DNA from: Pigoraptor vietnamica
Taxonomy: Eukaryota; Opisthokonta; Filasterea
Length of the DNA stretch: 33,662 nt
Reading direction: 5' to 3'
NCBI GenBank assembly: GCA_943704525.1
Contig: CALSCQ010000390.1
Span: 1-33,662 of the forward strand
The notes under the pieces were generated by a model that saw nothing but the letters and a program-made list of their open reading frames with translations, was not told where the DNA came from and did not search any database. Every line of letters starts with the position of its first letter. Positions within the stretch are counted from its first letter, which is position 1. The translations under genes were made by a program, and so were the position numbers. Below, one piece after another: positions 56 to 24,829 of this stretch.

Positions 56-2996
56 GTGCCTACGGCGTCGTGCTCAAGTGCCGGAACAAGGTATGCCAGT
101 TGAACGCGGTTGTGCTGCGTGCGTGTGCGTTGCGTGCGAATACAGCGACGTGACCAAAATGCGTGGCGCAGGAAACGAACGAAATTGTTGCGATCAAGAA
201 GTTTAAGGAGGGCGAAGGTGGGGTGAGGCGCCACGGATGCCGCCGCCCCTCTGGGCCGCACACCACTGACTTTGCCGCTGTGCAGATGACGAGGCCGTGC
301 GCAAAACGACTCTCCGCGAGCTCAAGGTGCTGCGCATGCTGAAGCAGGAGAACATTGTGAATCTGAAGGAGGCGTTCCGGCGGAAGGGCAAGCTGTACCT
401 CGTCTTTGAGTATGTCGAGAAGAACATGCTCGAGCTGCTCGAGGAGCGCCCGAACGGCGTCTCCATCGACCACGTGCGCCTGTACATTTATCAGCTTGTC
501 AAGGCCATCCACTGGTGCCACCAGAACGACGTCATTCACCGCGGTGGGTGTCGCGCATGCGTTTGTGTGTTGTGTGGGGGGAAGGAAGGGTCAAGCACGC
601 ACGCCCTTGCAGCTGTACTCACTGCACCGGGGCGTTGCGCAGACATCAAGCCGGAAAATCTCCTCATCAGCTCGGACTATGTGCTCAAGCTCTGCGACTT
701 TGGTGCGTCTCTCTGGAATCCGCGGCGTTCCTTGCAGCTACAGGAGGCTTGTCCCGGGACGTCACGCATGCGCCAGTTGCACGACATGCGTTGTGACACT
801 GCGTACCATCACAGGCTTTGCACGTACTCTAGCGCCCAAGGGGGGTGGTCGGTATACGGATTACGTGGCCACGCGGTGGTACCGGGCGCCGGAGCTTCTG
901 CTAGGGTGCGTTCCATGTGTGTTTGATGCGCGAGAACTGCGGCTGCCTTACATCGTTGCCGACTGTGGCCCCTGTGTGCGCGCCACTGCCATCTCTGTTC
1001 TTGTCCATTTCAGCGGTCGCGTGGTCCTAATCGGTGCCGTGTGGCCGTGAGGGCACCGGCGTTGGCTGTGGCGGTGTGAGAGCGGGTCTGACCTGAGTCC
1101 CTTGTCCCTTCCCCGCAGCGCCAAGTACGGCAAGGCGGTGGACATATGGAGCATCGGGTGCATTATGGGCGAGCTGACGGACGGCGAGCCCCTCTTCCCC
1201 GGCGAGAGCGAGATTGACCAGCTCTACACGATCCAGAGCGTGCTTGGGCCCCTCCCGCCGCACCAGATGGACCTCTTCCTCAAGAACCCGCGCTTCATGG
1301 GACTCAAGTTCCCAGACATGAGCGAGCCCGCGACCCTCGCCAAAAAGTACAAGGGGAAACTCGACGCCGTCGCCCTCGATTTCATGAGGGTGGGGGTTGT
1401 GAGCTGTGCGTGTGTGGTGTCTGTGTGTGCGTGTGTGCGTGTGTATGTGTGTATGTGTTTGGATGGGTGAATGGGTGTGTGTGAGTGTGTTGCTCACATT
1501 TGCCAAACGCAGGGCACGCTGCAAATGGACCCGAAGGAGCGCCTCACGAGCGAGGACTGCCTTGCCCACCCCTTTTTCGACCCCATTCGCAACGAAGAGC
1601 CCCACCAGCAGCTCCTCTATCTCGATTCCGCTGGAGACTCGCGCGCTGAGCGGGTCGACGCAGAGTCATCCGGGGCAGACCGGAGCGGTCTCACGTCGGC
1701 ACGATTGAAGAGTGCCGGCCGCAGCCGACCAACGTCCGCGCGGCCGCAGTCGTCGCGCTCGGTGCACAGGGTGCGTTGCCGTTGTGATCACGTGGTCTCT
1801 CTGTCTTCTCGTCCGCTGATGGCGTTTGCGCCGCGCAGGTGTCGTCAATTTCGTCGCTGGAGGGGCGCGGGTACAACCAGAGTTCCCCGGGCGAATCGGA
1901 CGAGGACGAGGCGCCCCCGCGGCACCGCCAGGGCGGCAAGCACGACGCGGGGTACCTGCCGACTGGCCTGGCACGTGCCAAGAAGGACGAGCGCGGGGGT
2001 CCGTTGGCGGGCCGTGGCGATGCAAGCACGTCCGGCGGGGAGGACTCTGGTGGCGATGACGACGACCGTACGGGCCGACACCACGGGCCTAAGGGCATTC
2101 CGAAGGCGCGCTCGAACGGAGCGTCATTTGTGCGCAATTCGGACGATTCGCCGACATCGAAGGGCAACGCGGGTAATTTCAGGCCAATGTCGGGGGAGCG
2201 CGATGATCGGGATGCTCACCGAGAACGCGAACGGGCGCGAGACCGTGACAGGGAAAGGGAGAGGGAGAGGGAGAGGGAGCGTGAAAGGGAGCGTGAGAGA
2301 GAGCGTGAGAGGGAGCGTGAGAGGGAAAGAGAGCGCGAAAGGGAGCGCGAGCGCGAAAGAGAGCGAGAACGGCGCGATACACGTGATAGGTACGAAGACC
2401 GGGAGACGACGTCGTCGATGGGTGCGCGCGAATATGGGTACGAGCGGCCTCAGTCTGTGGCGGATGGCGGGTATGACGGTGGGATTGGCGCTGCCGTGAG
2501 CCGTCTGGCATCGCGGCGAAACCCTGTGCCGGCGGAGACGCAGCGAGTGTATGCGGCGGCGCAGCCGCGGCAGCGCACGGGAGACGCTCGCAAGCGGGTT
2601 CGACCGCTGCCGGACTCCGTGCATGGGCAGCAACCGCAGGCGCAGAGCCGGGTGAGTAGGTCGCGTGGCGGTGCTTTGAGCGTGCGTCCGCTGACTGCCC
2701 TTCCTCCGTCTTGCAAAGCAGGACTTTGGACCGGTGGCTACCATGGGGTCGCAAAAGCTTCAACCTTACGGAAATGCGCGCACCATTGGACCTGCGCGCG
2801 TGGCCAAGGCATCGCCCTATGAGAAGGTTTGTACAAAGTGGACGTCCGACATGCGCACCCATGTGCTGATTATCTCGTGCAGCAGGGGCACGGTGGCGAT
2901 TTTGGGGCGCGTGGTCGATTGCCGAAGCAACTGCCGCAGCTGGGCCACGACCGTGGTGACTCACCAGACGGCCGCGGTGCGTACGGGCTGCGATAG
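56..2996 (+). CDS. CDKL5-type protein kinase, 5'-partial
   Basis: Ser/Thr kinase of the cyclin-dependent kinase-like (CDKL) family, about 683 residues in the window. The first exon (start codon and beginning of the Gly loop) lies upstream. Exons: <56-90, 172-217, 286-543, 643-702, 815-905, 1119-1389, 1513-1770, 1839-2651, 2722-2826, 2883-2996; all phases close and the frame ends at TAG. Visible motifs are GAYGVVLK (Gly loop), VAIKK (ATP lysine), HRDIKPEN (catalytic loop), [17 protein letters not shown] (activation loop) and GESEIDQ. The body ([29 protein letters not shown]) is closest to CDKL5, but the activation motif is TDY as in CDKL1-3, where CDKL5 has TEY. After the kinase fold comes a long Ser/Gly-rich tail with a Glu-Arg repeat. 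The family acts in cilium length control and microtubule-linked phosphorylation, so a flagellar role is inferred. The last two small exons are the least certain. Confidence 0.9.
1395..1495 (+). repeat. GU-rich intron interior
   Basis: Most of the kinase intron at 1390-1512 is an imperfect (TG)n/(TGCG)n run. Similar GU-rich tracts occur in other plus-strand introns of the window, in the transcribed sense. Confidence 0.8.
2250..2371 (+). repeat. Glu-Arg (GAG-CGN) coding repeat in kinase tail
   Basis: An imperfect six-base repeat of GAG/GAA alternating with CGN/AGG codons. It encodes roughly 40 alternating Glu and Arg residues in the C-terminal tail of the CDKL kinase. The repeat keeps the reading frame, and synonymous codons vary along it. 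It therefore looks selected at protein level and not like a fresh microsatellite. Alternating E/R tracts usually form charged single alpha-helices or RNA/nuclear-speckle-type interaction segments. Confidence 0.9.
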
Positions 2997-7495: not shown

Positions 7496-10400
7496 ATGCT
7501 CAAACTGCGGCGCAAGGGCGATGCGCCTGCCACCGCAGCCGCAACGCAGAAGGTGGTTGTGCGACGGACGTCTGCGGTGTGAGTGCAAGGACTCGTGCTG
7601 GGCTCTGTTTTCTGACATTGCCGTTGTGCCCCACAGCCCGCCACAGGGAAGCCGACAGACATCGCCTCGTTCTTCGGGCGGACTGCGCACAAGGCCGAGC
7701 CCACACTCCCCGCAGCGCACGGGTCGCAGAACGGCGCGCGCACGGGCGCGCTCAATGGCGCGTGTGATGCTGCGCCAGCCGCTCACACGGCAATTGAGAC
7801 GGGAGCTGCATCCGCATCTGCGCCGGTGACTGCGGCGGCGCCGTCGGACTTGCACGTCGTGCCACTCACGTCACCAACGGGAGCCGAGTGCGCGGAGCAC
7901 GTGACATGGCTCAAGTCGCCAACAAGCATCGCGCGGCGTGCTTCAGGTGTGTGTTGCCTGCGTTGCTCTGCGTTAATCGCCGTGCGTTCGCGGCTGTGTT
8001 ACACCGTGCGCAAGTGCCCCTCTCAATCCCTCAACCCGCAGCAAAGCGGAGAGAGCGCGACGCACCCGACCTTGAAATCCACAGCATTGCGCACATGCTC
8101 GGCAGCACGGACGGCGAAATGACGCAGAAGCGGCGCCGCTCGACGAGGGGCTCCAGTGAAAGTGTGGGTGCGCTGCTGTCGTGAAAGTGTGGGTGCGCCG
8201 CTGTCGCGAATGCATGAACCTGCCCGTCGCTCAATCTGAGTCCCCGCAGTGTCCACGCATGTCGCCCCCGTCAGCCTCACCGACCGATGTGGGGCGCTCC
8301 CTTGTGTCCCGGTGGCTGTCCTGCGACACTCCTGCGACGCCCCTAGACACCGCCGCGGAGATGCTCCCGCGCACTGCGGCCGACGGGCGCGTGGAGGGGC
8401 GCCCGGGCGGAGGTGCACGCCGCGCCAATCCCTTTCTGCGGCGAAGCGACGGATCGTCCTCTCGCAAGCGGTCATCGGCGGCGATTGTGTGCGCGCTGTC
8501 GTCCCTTGCGCGTGCGAGCCGGAAGGACGAGTGCGGCGAGAGCGCCCCGGTGGCCGCATGCAGCGAGGAGTCCCGCGCAGAGAGCGAAGGCGACGAGTTC
8601 AGCCACTGCGGACAGCCGGCCTCGGCACGCGGATCTCACGCGAGCGGTCTCTCCGGAGCGCAGGAAGACAACGCTTCGCTGTCATTCCCCCGCGAGCGCT
8701 GCGTGACGTCCCAAAGTGAAAAACAGGAGGAAGGCGGCGCACACGGCGAGGGGAATGGGGCAGCACTTGAATTGGGGACGCGCCGAGAAGACGAGAGCGA
8801 GAAGCACACAGGAGAGGGTGCGGACGATGAGTTTGGCGGCTGCGACGACCTCTGTGCCATTGACTCGGCGGCGTTCGATGCGATCGTGTGCGGGGCGGCG
8901 ACGCAGGCCGAGAGCGATGGCGACGACATGGACTGCGACTTTGCGTTGCTCGGGAGCGCCCTCGACGCCTTCGAGAGGTCCGCGTGCCCACAGCCCTTCG
9001 ACGCACGCCTGCGGTACGTCGTGACGTCGGTCGTCACGCAGGATTCGCCTTGCTTCCCCTTCCGCGAGCTGGTGGTGGGCATCGCGCCTGAGGAACCCGG
9101 GAAGTCCTTGCGCAGGCGCGAGAGCAGCGCCCGCTCGCCCGCTGCCGACGCCGCCGAGTCCGCCGCGGCGCACTCGTCTCCGCCGCTGCGCCTCGTCCTG
9201 CGTGGCCGATGGGCGTCCATGCCGGCGAAAGCGGGAGACATCGTGCGCGTCGACGGGCCCACGTGGGGCGCGTGTGCGTGCGGCGTGCCCACGTGGGTTG
9301 TGGACGACGAGGGGGGCGCGGTGATTGTGGCGCCAGACTGCCTCGTGTCGGGCACGCGCGTGGCCGAGTCGTTCACTTGCATTCGCCGCAGCGTGCTCAA
9401 CGAACGCTTCCGCGGCCCCGCCAACTCGGCCGCGCCCGCCATCCTCAACGGCAGCCTGCTCCACGAGGTCTTCCAGCGCGCCCTTGCCGCCCGCGACTTT
9501 TCCGAGTCGGCGCTCGCCGCCCACTGCGACGCGGCCGTCGTGCGGCACCTCGAGGACATATGCTGCCTGGGGGACTCGGAGGCAGCCGTGCGCGAGCGCG
9601 TGATGGAGGCCGCCGGTGCCCTGCGCCAGTGGGCGGAAGTGTTTGTGCGCGACAGCCCGTCGGCGGCCGCCGCGATTGCGTACGATGGCGCGTCCGACGC
9701 CCCCGTCGGCGGCGCAAGGCGGCGCATTTGTGTCCGGTCTATGGTGGACTGCGAGGAGAACTACTGGTCGCCGCGCTACGGCCTCAAGGGCAAGGTGGAC
9801 GCGACGGTCGAGATGGGCATTGAAGAGGACTCTGCGGACAGCACCCTCCCGAAGGCCCTCGGCGGGGCCGGGGTGTCCGGCGAGAAGGGTGTGCGGACAT
9901 GCGTCGTCCCACTGGAACTCAAGACCGGGCGCAGCGGGGGCGCGGCTGCGGCGGCCCATCGCGCGCAGCTGATACTGTACACGCTGCTAATGGCTGAACG
10001 GCACGCGTCGTCCGCTGGCGAGGGCGGCCTGCTGTTCTATCTGCGCGGGAGCGAGATGTCCGGGGTGAGTGCCACTCGCGCCGAAATACGGGAACTGCTT
10101 GCCGCCCGCAACGACCTCGCGAGCTATCTCGCCGTGGAAGACGTCCTGCCCCCCATGCTGCAGCAGGAGCACTCGTGCCGCGGGTGTTTCCAGGCGGACA
10201 CGTGCGCCATATACCACCGCGCCGTTGAGGCGGGAAATGCCGAGACGGCCAAGATGGGCCCTGCCTTCGCGGAGCACACGGCCCATCTCTCCGACACCCA
10301 CGCGGACTACTTCAGGCGCTGGATTCGCCTGATCGACCTCGAGGCGGGCGAGGCGCGCGGTGGGCGGCGCGAGATATGGACCATGTCGGCCGCAGAGCGC

Positions 10401-12487
10401 GAAGCACGCGGGCGCTGCTTTGCGCGCATGGCAGTCGCGAGCGGGCCCGAGGTGTCGGGCAGCTCGTTTCTGTACACGTTCCGCAGGGACGCGGCTGCGG
10501 ATGATGCGGCGCTCGGCGACGTGGGCCTCTCTGCGGGCGACCCCGTGGTTGTTGGCGTCGACGGTGGCGAGTGTGCCCTTGCGAGCGGCTTTTTGAGGGA
10601 CGTGCGCGCCCGCGTGGCCATCGTCTCTCTCGATCGTCGCTTGCCGGCACCCTATCGGTCCGAGAACGGGAGCGGCGCATCCGGGGCGGCGCCGCTGTTT
10701 CGAATTGACCGGGATGACTTTTCCGCGGGCATGGGCCTCGTGCGGTCGAACGTGGTGGGCCTGCTTCGACGGGGTGCGGACGTGCGCCGGCGGCAGCTGA
10801 TCGTGGACCTCGCGCCGCCCGCCTTCGCCGATGAGGAAGCTGCGGTGGCGCAGCTGCCGCCGGCGACCGTGGTCGGGCTGAACGGTGACCAGGTGCGTGC
10901 GATCGGCCGCATGCTGGCTGCGGAGGACTATGCGCTCGTGCTGGGGATGCCGGGCACGGGCAAGACGACGACGATTGCGCGCGCTGTGCGCCTGCTGGTG
11001 GAGAGCGGGCAGACGGTGCTTGTGGCGTCGTACACGCACACGGCCGTCGACACGATCTTGCTCAAGCTCCTCGAGGAGAACGTGCCCTTTGCGCGCCTCG
11101 GCAGCGCCGACAAGGTGCACCCGGCCGTGAAACCGCACACCCCGGAGGGCGCGGGGCCCTTCCAGACAGCCGCGGCGCTCGACGGCTTCTACCGGTCGCG
11201 GCCGGTGGTTGCAACGACCTGTCTGGGCATCTCCCACCCGCTGTTTGCGCGCCGCACCTTCGACGTGTGCATCGTGGACGAGGCGTCGCAGATCACGGAG
11301 CCCGTGTGCCTCGGCCCTCTGCGCCTCGCGCGCCGTTTTGTGCTCGTCGGCGACCACAACCAACTGCCGCCGCTGGTCGTGAACGTGCGCGCCCGCGAAG
11401 AAGGCCTCGCTGTGAGCCTCTTTCGTCGCCTGTACGATGCGCACCCGCGCGCCGTCGCCGCGCTCGAGCACCAGTACCGCATGAACGCGGACATTCTCCT
11501 GCTCACCAACACGCTCATCTACGACCACCGCCTGCGCTGCGGGACGGAGTCCGTCGCGCGCGCGTCGCTCGAGTTGCCTGTCCCCTCCGCACTCCCGCGG
11601 ACGGGCGCCGGCGGCGGGTGGCTGGCCGACATTGCCGATCCCGCGCGCCGCGTCGTGTTTGTGGACACGGACCTCGTCCCCGCCCCAGAGTCCAAATTTG
11701 GCGACTCTGTGCGCAACGACATTGAGGCCGTGCTCGTGGGGCAGCTGACGGCCGCCCTCGTCGCGTGCGGCGTGGCTGCGTCGTCCATAGGGATCATATC
11801 GCCGTACAGGGCGCAGCTGACGGCGATTCGCGCGTGCCTGCGGTCCGTGCGCGGTGCGGGCGGCGTCGAGGTGCACACAGTGGACAAATACCAGGGGCGC
11901 GACAAGGACTGCATCATCGTCTCGCTCGTGCGCGCCAACAGCGCTGGCAACGTGGGTGCTTGCGCCTCGTGTCTGTTTGCTGGTATATTGTTTGACATGT
12001 GCGTGCGTGTGCAGGTGGGTGATCTGATGAAGGACTGGCGGCGCGTCAACGTCGCCTTCACGCGTGCAAAGCGCAAGCTTGTCGTGTTTGGGTCGATGGG
12101 CACCTTCCGCCACGACGAGCTGTTTGCGCGGTTCCGCATTCTCCTCGAGGAAAACCGATGGATATCCGCCTGCATATGCACTTGCACTGCTGTCACTAGG
12201 AATTCGTGTGCGCCCGTTTACCCACGCTCGCAATGCCATTACACACACAACTGCCACTCGTCGCGTTTCCTTGACGGTCCCGTTGGCCCCACGTTTATCA
12301 GCTGCCCGCGGGTGCGCAGGAGGTGTTTGCGGGCTTCAACACGACGCAGACGACGCAGGCCACCCAGGGACCCAGCCCGCGCAAGGCCGACAGGGCGCCG
12401 GGCGATGGCAAGCGGCCGCGCGTGTTTGACGGCGGTCCGCGAGCGCATCTTGGCCCCATCGCCGTCAACGTCCTCGGGGGCATTTAA
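7496..12487 (+). CDS. DNA2: DNA2 nuclease/helicase
   Basis: DNA replication ATP-dependent nuclease/helicase that trims 5' flaps of Okazaki fragments and resects double-strand breaks; 1518 aa against about 1060 in human. Exons: 7496-7576, 7637-7946, 8042-8163, 8250-11951, 12015-12161, 12293-12487; 4557 coding nt. Residues 1 to about 370 are an acidic, Ser-rich extension with a PIP-like motif (IASFFG, about residues 36-41). The RecB-type nuclease shows LNGSLLHEVF, GLKGKVDATVEM and VPLELKTGRS. The iron-sulfur cysteines are CIRR near 547 and CRGCFQADTC near 815. The SF1B helicase carries GMPGTGKTTT (Walker A, about 1071), VDEASQ, GDHNQLPPLV, HQYRMN, VDKYQGRDKD and NVAFTRAKRKL. The intron at 11952-12014 is 63 nt with no stop, so its retention would stay in frame. 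The last intron appears to be AT-AC type. The N-terminal exons rest on splice signals and phase only. Confidence 0.93.
8156..8205 (+). repeat. 25-nt tandem duplication across a splice donor
   Basis: Two adjacent 25-nt units (8156-8180 and 8181-8205) differ at one base. They span the end of DNA2 exon 3 and its donor GTGGGTGCG, so a second identical donor lies 25 nt downstream at 8189. Use of the second donor would shift the frame. Confidence 0.85.
12162..12292 (+). other. Putative U12-type AT-AC intron in DNA2
   Basis: This 131-nt intron begins ATATCC and ends CCCAC. It contains TTCCTTGAC (12267-12275), an exact match to the minor-spliceosome branch-site consensus TTCCTTRAC. The branch A at 12274 lies 18 nt from the 3' end, within the usual U12 window. 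Splicing joins ...EENRW to VYQLPAG... in phase 0 and opens a 65-codon terminal exon ending in TAA. Positions +7/+8 of the donor (GC instead of TT) deviate from consensus. The best GT-AG alternative is 12192-12301 with a weak donor (GTCACT). Confidence 0.75.
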
Positions 12488-12548
12488 CTTAATATATATA
12501 GTCAGCACTGTCGCAGGACCTCGCCTTCACGGCACCCTGCTGCCGTGC

Positions 12549-14006
12549 TCACTCGGCCAATGCCGCACGGACGGCGTGCACCAAGTCGGCCCTCGCGGCG
12601 TCCCATTGGCGCCCGTCGCGGAGGTCCTTGAGCCTCACGCTGCCGCGCGCGAGTTCGTCGTCGCCAACCACGACGGCCAGGCGCGCGCCCTCTTTACACG
12701 CACGCGCAAACTGCCGGGACGCATTCCCCTCAAACTGCATCTGCGTGCGCAGGCCAGCCGCGCGCAGCTCTCTGCACAGGGCCACGCACGCGACGGACAG
12801 CGCGTCTCCCGAGGACATGCACGTCGCCGGCGGACCGCCCCGCACCTCGACCACAAACACGTCCGTGGGCACGCCGTCGTCCCCCGGTTGCGAGGACGGC
12901 GCCTCCCGCCCCGCGACCGCCGCGCGCAGCAGCACGAGGCGCTCGAGGCCCGCAGCCCAGCCAATCGCAGGCACGGCCGCCTGTCGCGCGCCCCCGATCG
13001 CCTGCGCAAGGCCGTCGTAGCGACCGCCGGCGAGGACGGTGCTCTGCGCCCCAAGGCGGTCCGTCGCAAACTCAAACACCGTGTCGCCATAGTAGTCCAG
13101 CCCGCGCACCAGCCGCCAGTCCACTTCCATCTCGCACGCAAGGGACATGCCGCGCACCGCCGCAAGCACAGCGTCAAACCGCGCGCGCGCTGCTTCCCCG
13201 ACAAAATCGAGCAGGCGTGGCGCCTCAGCCAGCACCTCCGCGTCTTGGGGCAGCTTGGAGTCCAGTATGCGGAGCACGTGACCCGCGGCCAGCCGCCGTT
13301 GCGACTCTTCCGAAAGCCGCTGCGGGCCCTGTGCTTGGAGGAATACGCCCAGAGCATCTGCGTACGTCCGCCGTGCCTCGGGCGCCCCGATCGTGTTGAT
13401 GTGCAGCCGCACGGCACCCAGCAGGCCGAGAGCCTCCAGAAAGTCTGCGCCAATGCCAACGGCCTCCGCATCCGCCGCAGGGCCGCGCGTGCCCAGCAAC
13501 TCGATGCCCAGCTGCGAAAACTCGCGGAAGCGGCCCAACTGAGGGCGCTCGCGGCGGAACATGGGGCCGCAGTAATACAGGCGCTGCGGGAGGTGTGCGT
13601 CGCGCGCTGTCGCCAGCACAGCTCGCATAACAGATGCCGTGCTCTCCGGGCGCAGACACAGCGCCTCGTCGCCGTCGGCAAGAGAGAACATCTCCTTCAT
13701 CACGACATCAGAGCCTTCGCCGAGCGTCCGCTGGAAGAGCGCCGCGTGCTCGAGGACGGGCGTGGCGACTTGGCCGCAGCACGCGCCCTCTGCCACAGCA
13801 ATGAACGCCTCAGCGACAGCGCGCCGCTCCGCGCATTCCCTCGGAAAGCGGTCGTGCGTGCCACGAACGGGCCGTGTCTTTGTGGGTCCGGATGGCGGCT
13901 GTGTTGCTCCTTTGGTGCCCTCTGCAGACGCGCGTGTTACAGACCCCGCGTGTAACAACCGCGCCCACCGCACGGCCGCAACCGGGCGGGTCCGTGCGAG
14001 CATCAT
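12549..14006 (-). CDS. Histidyl-tRNA synthetase, bacterial/mitochondrial type
   Basis: Class II aminoacyl-tRNA synthetase charging tRNA-His; 485 aa from the ATG at 14006, with an in-frame upstream ATG at 14048 (499 aa) as an alternative. It is a single uninterrupted exon. Motif 2 is visible as YYCGPMFRRERPQLGRFREF, the histidine-specific motif as LVRGLDYY, and motif 3 as AIGWAAGLERL; a C-terminal anticodon-binding domain follows (LRTQMQFEG, LAVVVGDDE). The N-terminus from 14006 (MMLARTRPVAAVRWARLLHA) is rich in Arg and Ala with no acidic residues, like a mitochondrial presequence, so a mitochondrial or dual location is inferred. The gene ends 62 nt from the converging DNA2 stop and is divergent from the carrier gene. 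It is the only clear protein gene in the window without introns. Confidence 0.93.
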   Translation of the reverse strand: MMLARTRPVAAVRWARLLHAGSVTRASAEGTKGATQPPSGPTKTRPVRGTHDRFPRECAERRAVAEAFIAVAEGACCGQVATPVLEHAALFQRTLGEGSDVVMKEMFSLADGDEALCLRPESTASVMRAVLATARDAHLPQRLYYCGPMFRRERPQLGRFREFSQLGIELLGTRGPAADAEAVGIGADFLEALGLLGAVRLHINTIGAPEARRTYADALGVFLQAQGPQRLSEESQRRLAAGHVLRILDSKLPQDAEVLAEAPRLLDFVGEAARARFDAVLAAVRGMSLACEMEVDWRLVRGLDYYGDTVFEFATDRLGAQSTVLAGGRYDGLAQAIGGARQAAVPAIGWAAGLERLVLLRAAVAGREAPSSQPGDDGVPTDVFVVEVRGGPPATCMSSGDALSVACVALCRELRAAGLRTQMQFEGNASRQFARACKEGARLAVVVGDDELARGSVRLKDLRDGRQWDAARADLVHAVRAALAE

Positions 14007-14464
14007 GGCGCAAAATGACTGCTGAGGCCCGTGCGCGCGACGTCGCATATAAACGCTGTGTCACTGCGGGCCGGTCTCGTAAAGACAGTCCGTGTGCACA
14101 CGTGCTGGCAACCGGCGCTGTGGGGGCAAAGGCTGAGGTATCGTTGGGATGATCCCAAAACATCAATTTCTATATATGGGCAGTAATTAGAAGAATTTCC
14201 TTATATGTATATTTTGTAAGCACAAATTCCTGATAAGAACAAAATTTTCCGCCAATCGTGCATGTAATCAACATCCGGGGCGCCGCACGTGTGCCCAATC
14301 GCGAAACAGCCACCGTCCGCTCCACATGCGCAGTGGACGCGAATCGCGAAGCGATTGCCTCGTCTTTATTGCTGCGAAGGGATCGCGCGTTACCGTCAAG
14401 TGCCCTCGCAAGCCGTACACTTTGTCGCATTTGTTCAACGCAAGAAGAGCAGAGTGGGTGAAAA
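14007..14464. promoter_or_regulatory. Divergent promoter region, HisRS / carrier
   Basis: A 458-nt spacer between two divergent genes for mitochondrial proteins, presumably a shared promoter. A strikingly AT-rich island lies at about 14158-14250 inside otherwise GC-rich DNA. CACGTG hexamers occur at 14099-14104 and 14286-14291. No RNA gene is seen. Confidence 0.5.
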
Positions 14465-24610: not shown

Positions 24611-24689
24611 ACTGTTACACGCACCCACTTTACCTAATAAGGCAATCAGGGGCGTCCCACAAGCGCGTGTATGGCCCAGCGGGGCGCGG

Positions 24690-24696
24690 TATAAAA
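24690..24696 (+). promoter_or_regulatory. U6 TATA box
   Basis: TATAAAA at -30 to -24 relative to the inferred U6 start at 24720, the position that directs RNA polymerase III at external (type 3) U6 promoters. Confidence 0.8.
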
Positions 24697-24719
24697 GGCG
24701 GTGCGTGGTGCAGTCTGCC

Positions 24720-24738
24720 GTACCTCCGAAAGGAGTGT

Positions 24739-24778
<40 letters not shown>

Positions 24779-24829
24779 GGCCCCTGCGCAAGGATGACAC
24801 GCAAAATCGTGGAAGCGTTCCTCTTTTTT
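24720..24829 (+). ncRNA. U6: U6 spliceosomal snRNA
   Basis: From ATATACTAAAAT onward the sequence is nearly identical to U6 of other eukaryotes: ACAGAGA box at 24762-24768 (pairs with the 5' splice site), AGC triad at 24774-24776, the internal stem-loop region CCCCTGCGCAAGGATGACAC, and a T6 terminator. The 5' stem-loop is diverged in sequence but pairs well (GUAC/GUAC and CUCC/GGAG around a GAAA loop), which sets the 5' end near 24720. It is the catalytic RNA of the major spliceosome, transcribed by RNA polymerase III. The U6 core and its TATA box make this a functional locus and not a pseudogene. Confidence 0.97.
24824..24829 (+). terminator. RNA polymerase III T6 terminator of U6
   Basis: Six T residues directly after the conserved GCGTTCC 3' end of U6. 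Confidence 0.85.

Follow-up and report, generated by a model that had tools for sequence, protein, structure and literature searches.

How is the reading frame of DNA2 carried from the helicase part to the last exon in Pigoraptor vietnamica, and what kind of intron separates the two? The window, that is, the whole stretch of 33,662 nucleotides analysed here, carries this gene on its plus strand. The upstream coding region lies within an open frame at 8160-11951; its helicase core aligns to the solved mouse DNA2 (5eax) with an E value of 3.4e-100, and the alignment ends before the 12161/12293 junction. An ordinary GT-AG intron of 63 bases follows (11952-12014), and its excision yields NVGDLMKDWRRVNVAFTRAK, which aligns to DNA2. 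The next exon (12015-12161) has ...LLEENRW as its C-terminal residues and is placed by its frame and its codon-usage score, as is the last exon (12293-12487), an open frame that reads VYQLPAGAQEVF...VLGGI and ends with a stop codon. Beyond it, a minus-strand open frame at 12549-14060, which by eye we take to resemble histidyl-tRNA synthetase, converges with DNA2, the two stops being about 60 bases apart.

The original prediction placed a U12-type AT-AC intron of phase 0 at 12162-12292, between the last two exons, and both the interval and its phase were borne out. ATATCCGCC begins at 12162, the acceptor CAC (12290-12292) ends at 12292, giving a length of 131 bases, and coding resumes in the new frame at 12293. 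The branch motif expected near the end of the intron is also there, TTCCTTGAC at 12267-12275, in a position to pair with the unchanged GUAAGGAA of U12; it is followed by 17 bases inside the intron and not by the 18 that had been counted. This is the sole exact TTCCTTRAC in the window, both strands included. When one mismatch is allowed, the motif is seen 6 times for 5.9 expected, which is the chance level, so that the motif alone is no proof of an intron. At 12162-12292, donor, branch site, acceptor and frame all coincide. A codon-usage score that took DNA2 (9000-11951) for training, and was applied to three intervals fixed by the proposed boundaries rather than as a blind scan, gave +0.31 bits per codon for the preceding exon in its own frame, values below zero for 12162-12292 in every frame (-0.45, -0.58 and -0.60), and +0.20 for 12293-12484 in the VYQLPAG frame, the remaining two frames being negative.

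We then considered other ways of closing the gap. Donors at 12100-12259 were combined with acceptors at 12190-12329, taking GT, GC and AT starts; GC-AG pairs and AT pairs other than ATATCC were tallied only. Forty-seven pairs shift the frame correctly. Six of these are GT-AG pairs, and an ordinary U2-type intron at 12192-12301, or a similar one, would thereby restore the frame; yet such introns would have to use the donor GTCACTAGG (12192) or GTTTACCCA (12216), both judged poor, in agreement with the earlier claim that no good GT-AG intron was available. Moreover, the extra stretch that they would add from 12162 falls in the interval that scores as non-coding, and RTATCCGC together with TTCCTTGAC is found again in seven genes whose junctions have homology support, as described below. 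We therefore regard a U2-type intron here as very improbable. The ATATCC donor is itself compatible in frame with four further ends, namely an AC at 12244, upstream of the branch motif, and AGs at 12301, 12319 and 12322. Joining 12162 to the AG at 12301 would make an AT-AG intron at the cost of the residues VYQ. Although the frame permits it, this acceptor would stand 26 bases past the branch motif, whereas the other 10 introns for which we chose an acceptor have 9 to 21, and the four other introns with an A donor were read with AC ends, two of them (LSG1 and PDE) with homology across the junction. An AT-AG intron thus seems improbable.

Homology searches of the DNA2 tail gave no relative among solved structures (PDB) when the tail was submitted alone; the NCBIfam match was confined to the helicase core, the tail being without a match, and an Rfam scan of window positions 12000-12500 returned no match. 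Since the mouse alignment stops short of the junction and the tail has no solved relative, the exact junction is unproved by homology; it is placed, putatively, by the reading frame, the coding score and the splice motifs. At the level of sequence, these features confirmed 12162-12292 as a genuine U12-type AT-AC intron of DNA2. The intron indeed has RTATCC at +1 to +6, AT-AC termini and TTCCTTRAC near the acceptor, which are features of U12-type introns. The donor had been described as ATATCC, which holds for +1 to +6, but a departure at +7/+8 had been overlooked: the donor (12162-12169) is ATATCCGC and not ATATCCTT, with GC in place of the usual TT.

Is this donor an isolated variant? The genome (32.5 Mb, 1395 contigs) was searched with a pattern made of TATCC, a gap of 27 to 119 bases, TTCCTTRAC, 6 to 16 bases, and AC or AG, so that the pattern imposed +2 to +6 as well as the branch motif but left +1, +7 and +8 open. 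Three such searches gave 8, 5 and 10 matches at 7, 4 and 8 places, or 19 places altogether, and the reversed-pattern controls gave 2, 6 and 2 matches, the control exceeding the matches in the second search (6 against 5). A search with an ATAT donor gave 6 matches at 6 places, with 4 in its reversed control; this set was examined without C1150, and two of its members, on C420 (L022) and C1174 (L023), were set aside because they lack TATCC. As these controls are not low, part of the places are chance matches; it is the letters at +1, +7 and +8, along with homology, that carry the argument, and not the raw counts. In this respect, 12 of the 19 places have GC at +7/+8, hence RTATCCGC, and none has RTATCCTT; the binomial probability of at least 12 such places is about 1.6e-8 when G and C are set at 31% each. 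At +1, which the pattern left open, every one of the 12 has a purine (A or G). The other seven places, on C55, C1115, C1268, C1333, C296, C424 and C764, show between them CC, AG, TG, GT, CC, CG and AC at +7/+8; they were not accepted as introns after a frame check, which does not disprove them.

One could imagine that +7 and +8, being loosely constrained, simply became GC by GC-rich drift with no molecule reading them, and the 63% G+C of the window agrees with such a drift. However, composition would be expected to yield CG, CC and GG about as often as GC, which is nonetheless the pair found in 12 of the 19 places left open, and from +9 onwards the letters are mixed, +9 itself being C in 6 introns, T in 3, G in 2 and A in 1. 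We consider drift without a reader quite improbable. Donor conservation in the 12 introns stops at +8, the same point at which the changed bases of U6atac stop. The R of the branch motif is G in all 12, as well as in the seven other TATCC places. The acceptors were picked by us from donor type, frame and homology; AC or AG ends could be assigned in 11 of the 12 introns, with a distance of 9 to 21 bases from the branch motif, which was itself part of the search pattern.

Homology continues across the spliced junction in seven of the 12 introns, two of them AT-AC and five GT-AG. Pfam homology runs through the junction in urocanase (L005), SHQ1 (L008) and PDE (L009; A donor and AC end), and PDB alignments are ungapped at the junction in AP-1 mu (L011), for which Pfam gave no match, CSL4/EXOSC1 (L012), IMP3 (L010) and LSG1 (L007; A donor and AC end). 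Pfam covered 10 of the 12 spliced peptides, plus L006. Three further introns keep the frame open across the junction without firm homology support: L004 (AT-AC) and L006 (GT-AG), both without a Pfam match, and L014 (AT-AC), with one weak Pfam match under its cut-off. DNA2 is the twelfth of the set. The remaining one, L013 (C1078:7040-8169), has the donor GTATCCGC and the branch site TTCCTTGAC in a gene that we take by eye to resemble TRAPPC11, but no clear acceptor: only two ends bring back the frame, an AC 16 bases further on and an AG at a large distance from the branch motif, and L013 is possibly a GT-AC minor intron, a mixed intron or a chance occurrence.

The original prediction held that this organism keeps a working minor spliceosome. 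The snRNA genes give it support, together with the 11 further intron candidates and the seven among them that have homology through the junction. The snRNA search that had been suggested succeeded for U12 (C1296:18536-18696, 73.8 bits), U6atac (C932:8234-8352, minus strand, 81.4 bits) and U4atac (C1072:23302-23426, minus strand, 64 bits), each a single genome match above its Rfam gathering score, in the same genome as the DNA2 intron; it failed for U11. U4atac and U6atac form a continuous stem I duplex of 16 pairs, although the U6atac strand, CGAUAAGGA, departs from the consensus UGACAAGGA; an intact stem I despite these changed letters is a sign of function for both genes. The window also holds a major U6 gene (24720-24829, plus strand, 99.1 bits) with an unchanged ACAGAGA box. 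Upstream of it lies the promoter element GTCCCACAAG (24654-24663, plus strand), which is common to U1, U2, U5, U12, U4atac and U6atac; a TATA-like TATAAAAG accompanies the two (24654-24829, plus strand). Searching the genome for GTCCCAYAAG gave 78 matches, against 49 in the reversed control. Four of these 78 loci carry U6, U6atac, U4atac and U12, and an Rfam scan of the other 74 added U1 (L064), U2 (L051) and U5 (L055). In all seven snRNAs the element begins 66 to 73 bases upstream of the 5' end, as computed by hand from the coordinates. Because minor and major snRNAs have this element in common, the genes of the minor snRNAs appear to be functional in this organism.

Some loci are mentioned here as side observations. 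L039 (C284) and L082 (C1110) are similar to each other and combine the promoter element with TATATAAGGC; L039 matches the nematode sRNA family RF01656 with 41.4 bits, L082 has no Rfam match, and by eye we presume both to be reminiscent of Y/stem-bulge RNA. L028 (C120, positions 63-279, minus strand) matches the Aspergillus fumigatus sRNA Afu_182 with 36 bits, under the cut-off of 65 (E value 0.0008), and this match begins 61 bases from the promoter element, compared with 66 to 73 in the snRNAs. The contigs of L047, L048, L050 and L096 have the round sizes 25000, 12500, 15000 and 10000, which is odd for an assembly.

If the donor has changed, which of its readers has followed? In U12, GUAAGGAA is unchanged, and the branch motif is unchanged too, except for the constant G before AC. 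U6atac begins with GUGUUGUAUGAGCCGAGAGAAGGUUAGCA, compared with the Rfam consensus GUGUUGUAUGAAAGGAGAGAAGGUUAGCA. In its first 29 bases, 26 equal the consensus and the only changes are at 12 to 14, from AAG to GCC, so that bases 12 to 16 read GCCGA instead of the AAGGA of the canonical donor box. The register reportedly worked out by Incorvaia and Padgett in 1998 sets donor positions +4 to +8 against U6atac bases 16 to 12. G12 and C13 then fit the new donor letters exactly, as complements of +8 C and +7 G, while C14 stands unpaired opposite +6 C. The probability that all three changes in the first 29 bases would hit the five donor-pairing bases is 0.0027 if they were random. On the other side, two matching letters out of two carry little weight, being expected by chance in about 1 case in 9. 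The U6atac change is likely to be compensatory to the shift at +7/+8; its location, the fit of both +7/+8 letters and the stop of donor conservation at +8 speak for it. Altogether, the DNA2 intron is very probably a real minor AT-AC intron, one of about a dozen with the donor RTATCCGC instead of RTATCCTT, and this donor would be read by the changed U6atac.

Because of the mismatch between C14 and +6 C, the computed pairing of U6atac with the donor is not stronger overall: the DNA2 donor gives -2.5 kcal/mol with its own U6atac, whereas a canonical U6atac would give -3.3, and a donor matched in full, UCGGC, would reach -9.7. The introns could also be real and the GC read by U11 alone, the change in U6atac being incidental drift that weakened its pairing. 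Two points speak for such a drift: the canonical box would pair with the donor at least as well overall, and the +6 C is retained even though C14 abolishes its pair. Against it, the three changes are confined to the donor box, within 29 bases that otherwise equal the consensus, and the bases facing +7/+8 are exact complements of the new letters. We consider incidental drift unlikely, although it deserves to be weighed. The fully complementary donor expected from the U6atac box, RTATCGGC, was sought by also opening +6, for gaps of 90 to 120 bases only, which gave 12 matches against 11 in the reversed control; among the 10 places found, 8 have TATCC, of which 6 are TATCCGC, and none has TATCG. 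A search for other U6atac genes with the box left open gave 0 matches in viral_contigs and genome_contigs, neither of which is a eukaryote collection.

How could a compensatory change in U6atac be reconciled with its weak duplex? In the accepted model, U11 pairs with the donor first, leaving the first three intron bases unpaired, and is then replaced by U6atac (PMC3584512). In the simplest scheme, U11 would cover CCGC, +6 included, through a predicted 5' end containing GCGG, and the GCCGA of U6atac would cover +4, +5, +7 and +8, with G12 on +8 C, C13 on +7 G, G15 on +5 C and A16 on +4 U, leaving +6 C unpaired by C14; U12 would read the unchanged branch site TTCCTTGAC. Reading of CCGC by U11 would account for the conservation of +6 C. 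According to this proposal, the donor would have been recoded from UCCUU to UCCGC, matched by the change of U6atac A12A13 to G12C13 and by a predicted U11 GCGG, with +6 checked by U11 only; we give this detailed scheme an even chance. We infer that these introns are spliced in this manner.

The U11 gene itself escaped detection. The RF00548 profile gave no U11 match in the genome at an E value of 0.001 or 10, and a pattern combining the promoter element, GCGG and an Sm site matched 9 times, the reversed control 16 times; from their letters, none of the 9 was judged to be U11. Rfam returned no U11 from the 74 promoter-element loci at the gathering score, nor from 20 of the 74 at E values up to 10. 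The start regions of all 74 were inspected, nine loci in full, and none was accepted; in L032, GCGGAT stands close to where U11 would be expected to begin, but no Sm site is visible and the locus apparently overlaps a protein gene. We take this failure to reflect divergence or a missed match rather than the absence of U11.

To our knowledge, the minor-intron donor and the U6atac box are regarded as all but invariant in eukaryotes. Incorvaia and Padgett are said to have engineered donor-U6atac pairing in mammalian cells, by means of a hand-made reporter and in the same register; here, the change is natural and one position is left unpaired. Usual U12-type introns have the donor RTATCCTT(T) and the branch motif TCCTTAAC (PMC2846911). 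The introns described here likewise have AT-AC and GT-AG subtypes, a branch motif, a short distance from branch to acceptor, and U12, U4atac and U6atac; they differ by GC instead of TT at +7/+8, by G before the branch AC in 12 of 12, and by GCCGA instead of AAGGA in U6atac. The rule described by Bartschat and Samuelsson in 2010 asks for RTATCCTT and tolerates a single C-to-T change (PMC2846911). As the rule is worded there, all 19 places, that of DNA2 included, fall outside it, and we therefore class these introns as a U12-type variant and not as standard members. There is a likeness, one of description only, to Acanthamoeba castellanii, which also has few minor introns and an AT-AC donor outside this rule. 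In that species, the table of the same paper counts one AT-AC intron, none following the rule, and, by two methods, 1 GT-AG intron (1 following it) or 3 (0 following it), and a C-rich stretch downstream of the minor donor is described as seemingly species-specific (PMC2846911). In contrast to the dozen found here by a strict search, Physarum polycephalum (Larue, Elias and Roy 2021) is reported to have a very high density of minor introns (PMC10639083).

The minor spliceosome is said to have been lost at least 23 times (Vosseberg and colleagues; PMC9887622). A pan-eukaryotic survey treats animal and plant introns whose termini are non-canonical, and suggests that the machinery of Cyanophora may be transformed, because only U11 was found (PMC10639083). 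Among the titles and abstract openings of the literature, no report appeared of a donor shift at +7/+8 together with a changed U6atac box, which falls short of establishing novelty. In the intronIC classifier, human matrices serve to score the donor over positions -3 to +9 (PMC7367187); introns of this kind would be at a disadvantage there, and lineages that carry them may as a consequence be undercounted or called empty. The shift at +7/+8 is the more interesting part of these results. With RTATCCGC in all the homology-supported examples and U6atac changed at the matching bases, this genome would document a natural co-change of a splice-site code and its reader, and the minor 5' splice-site code of this lineage appears to have been rewritten. 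The system also makes testable the question of whether the donor letters read by U11 have to be those read by U6atac as well.
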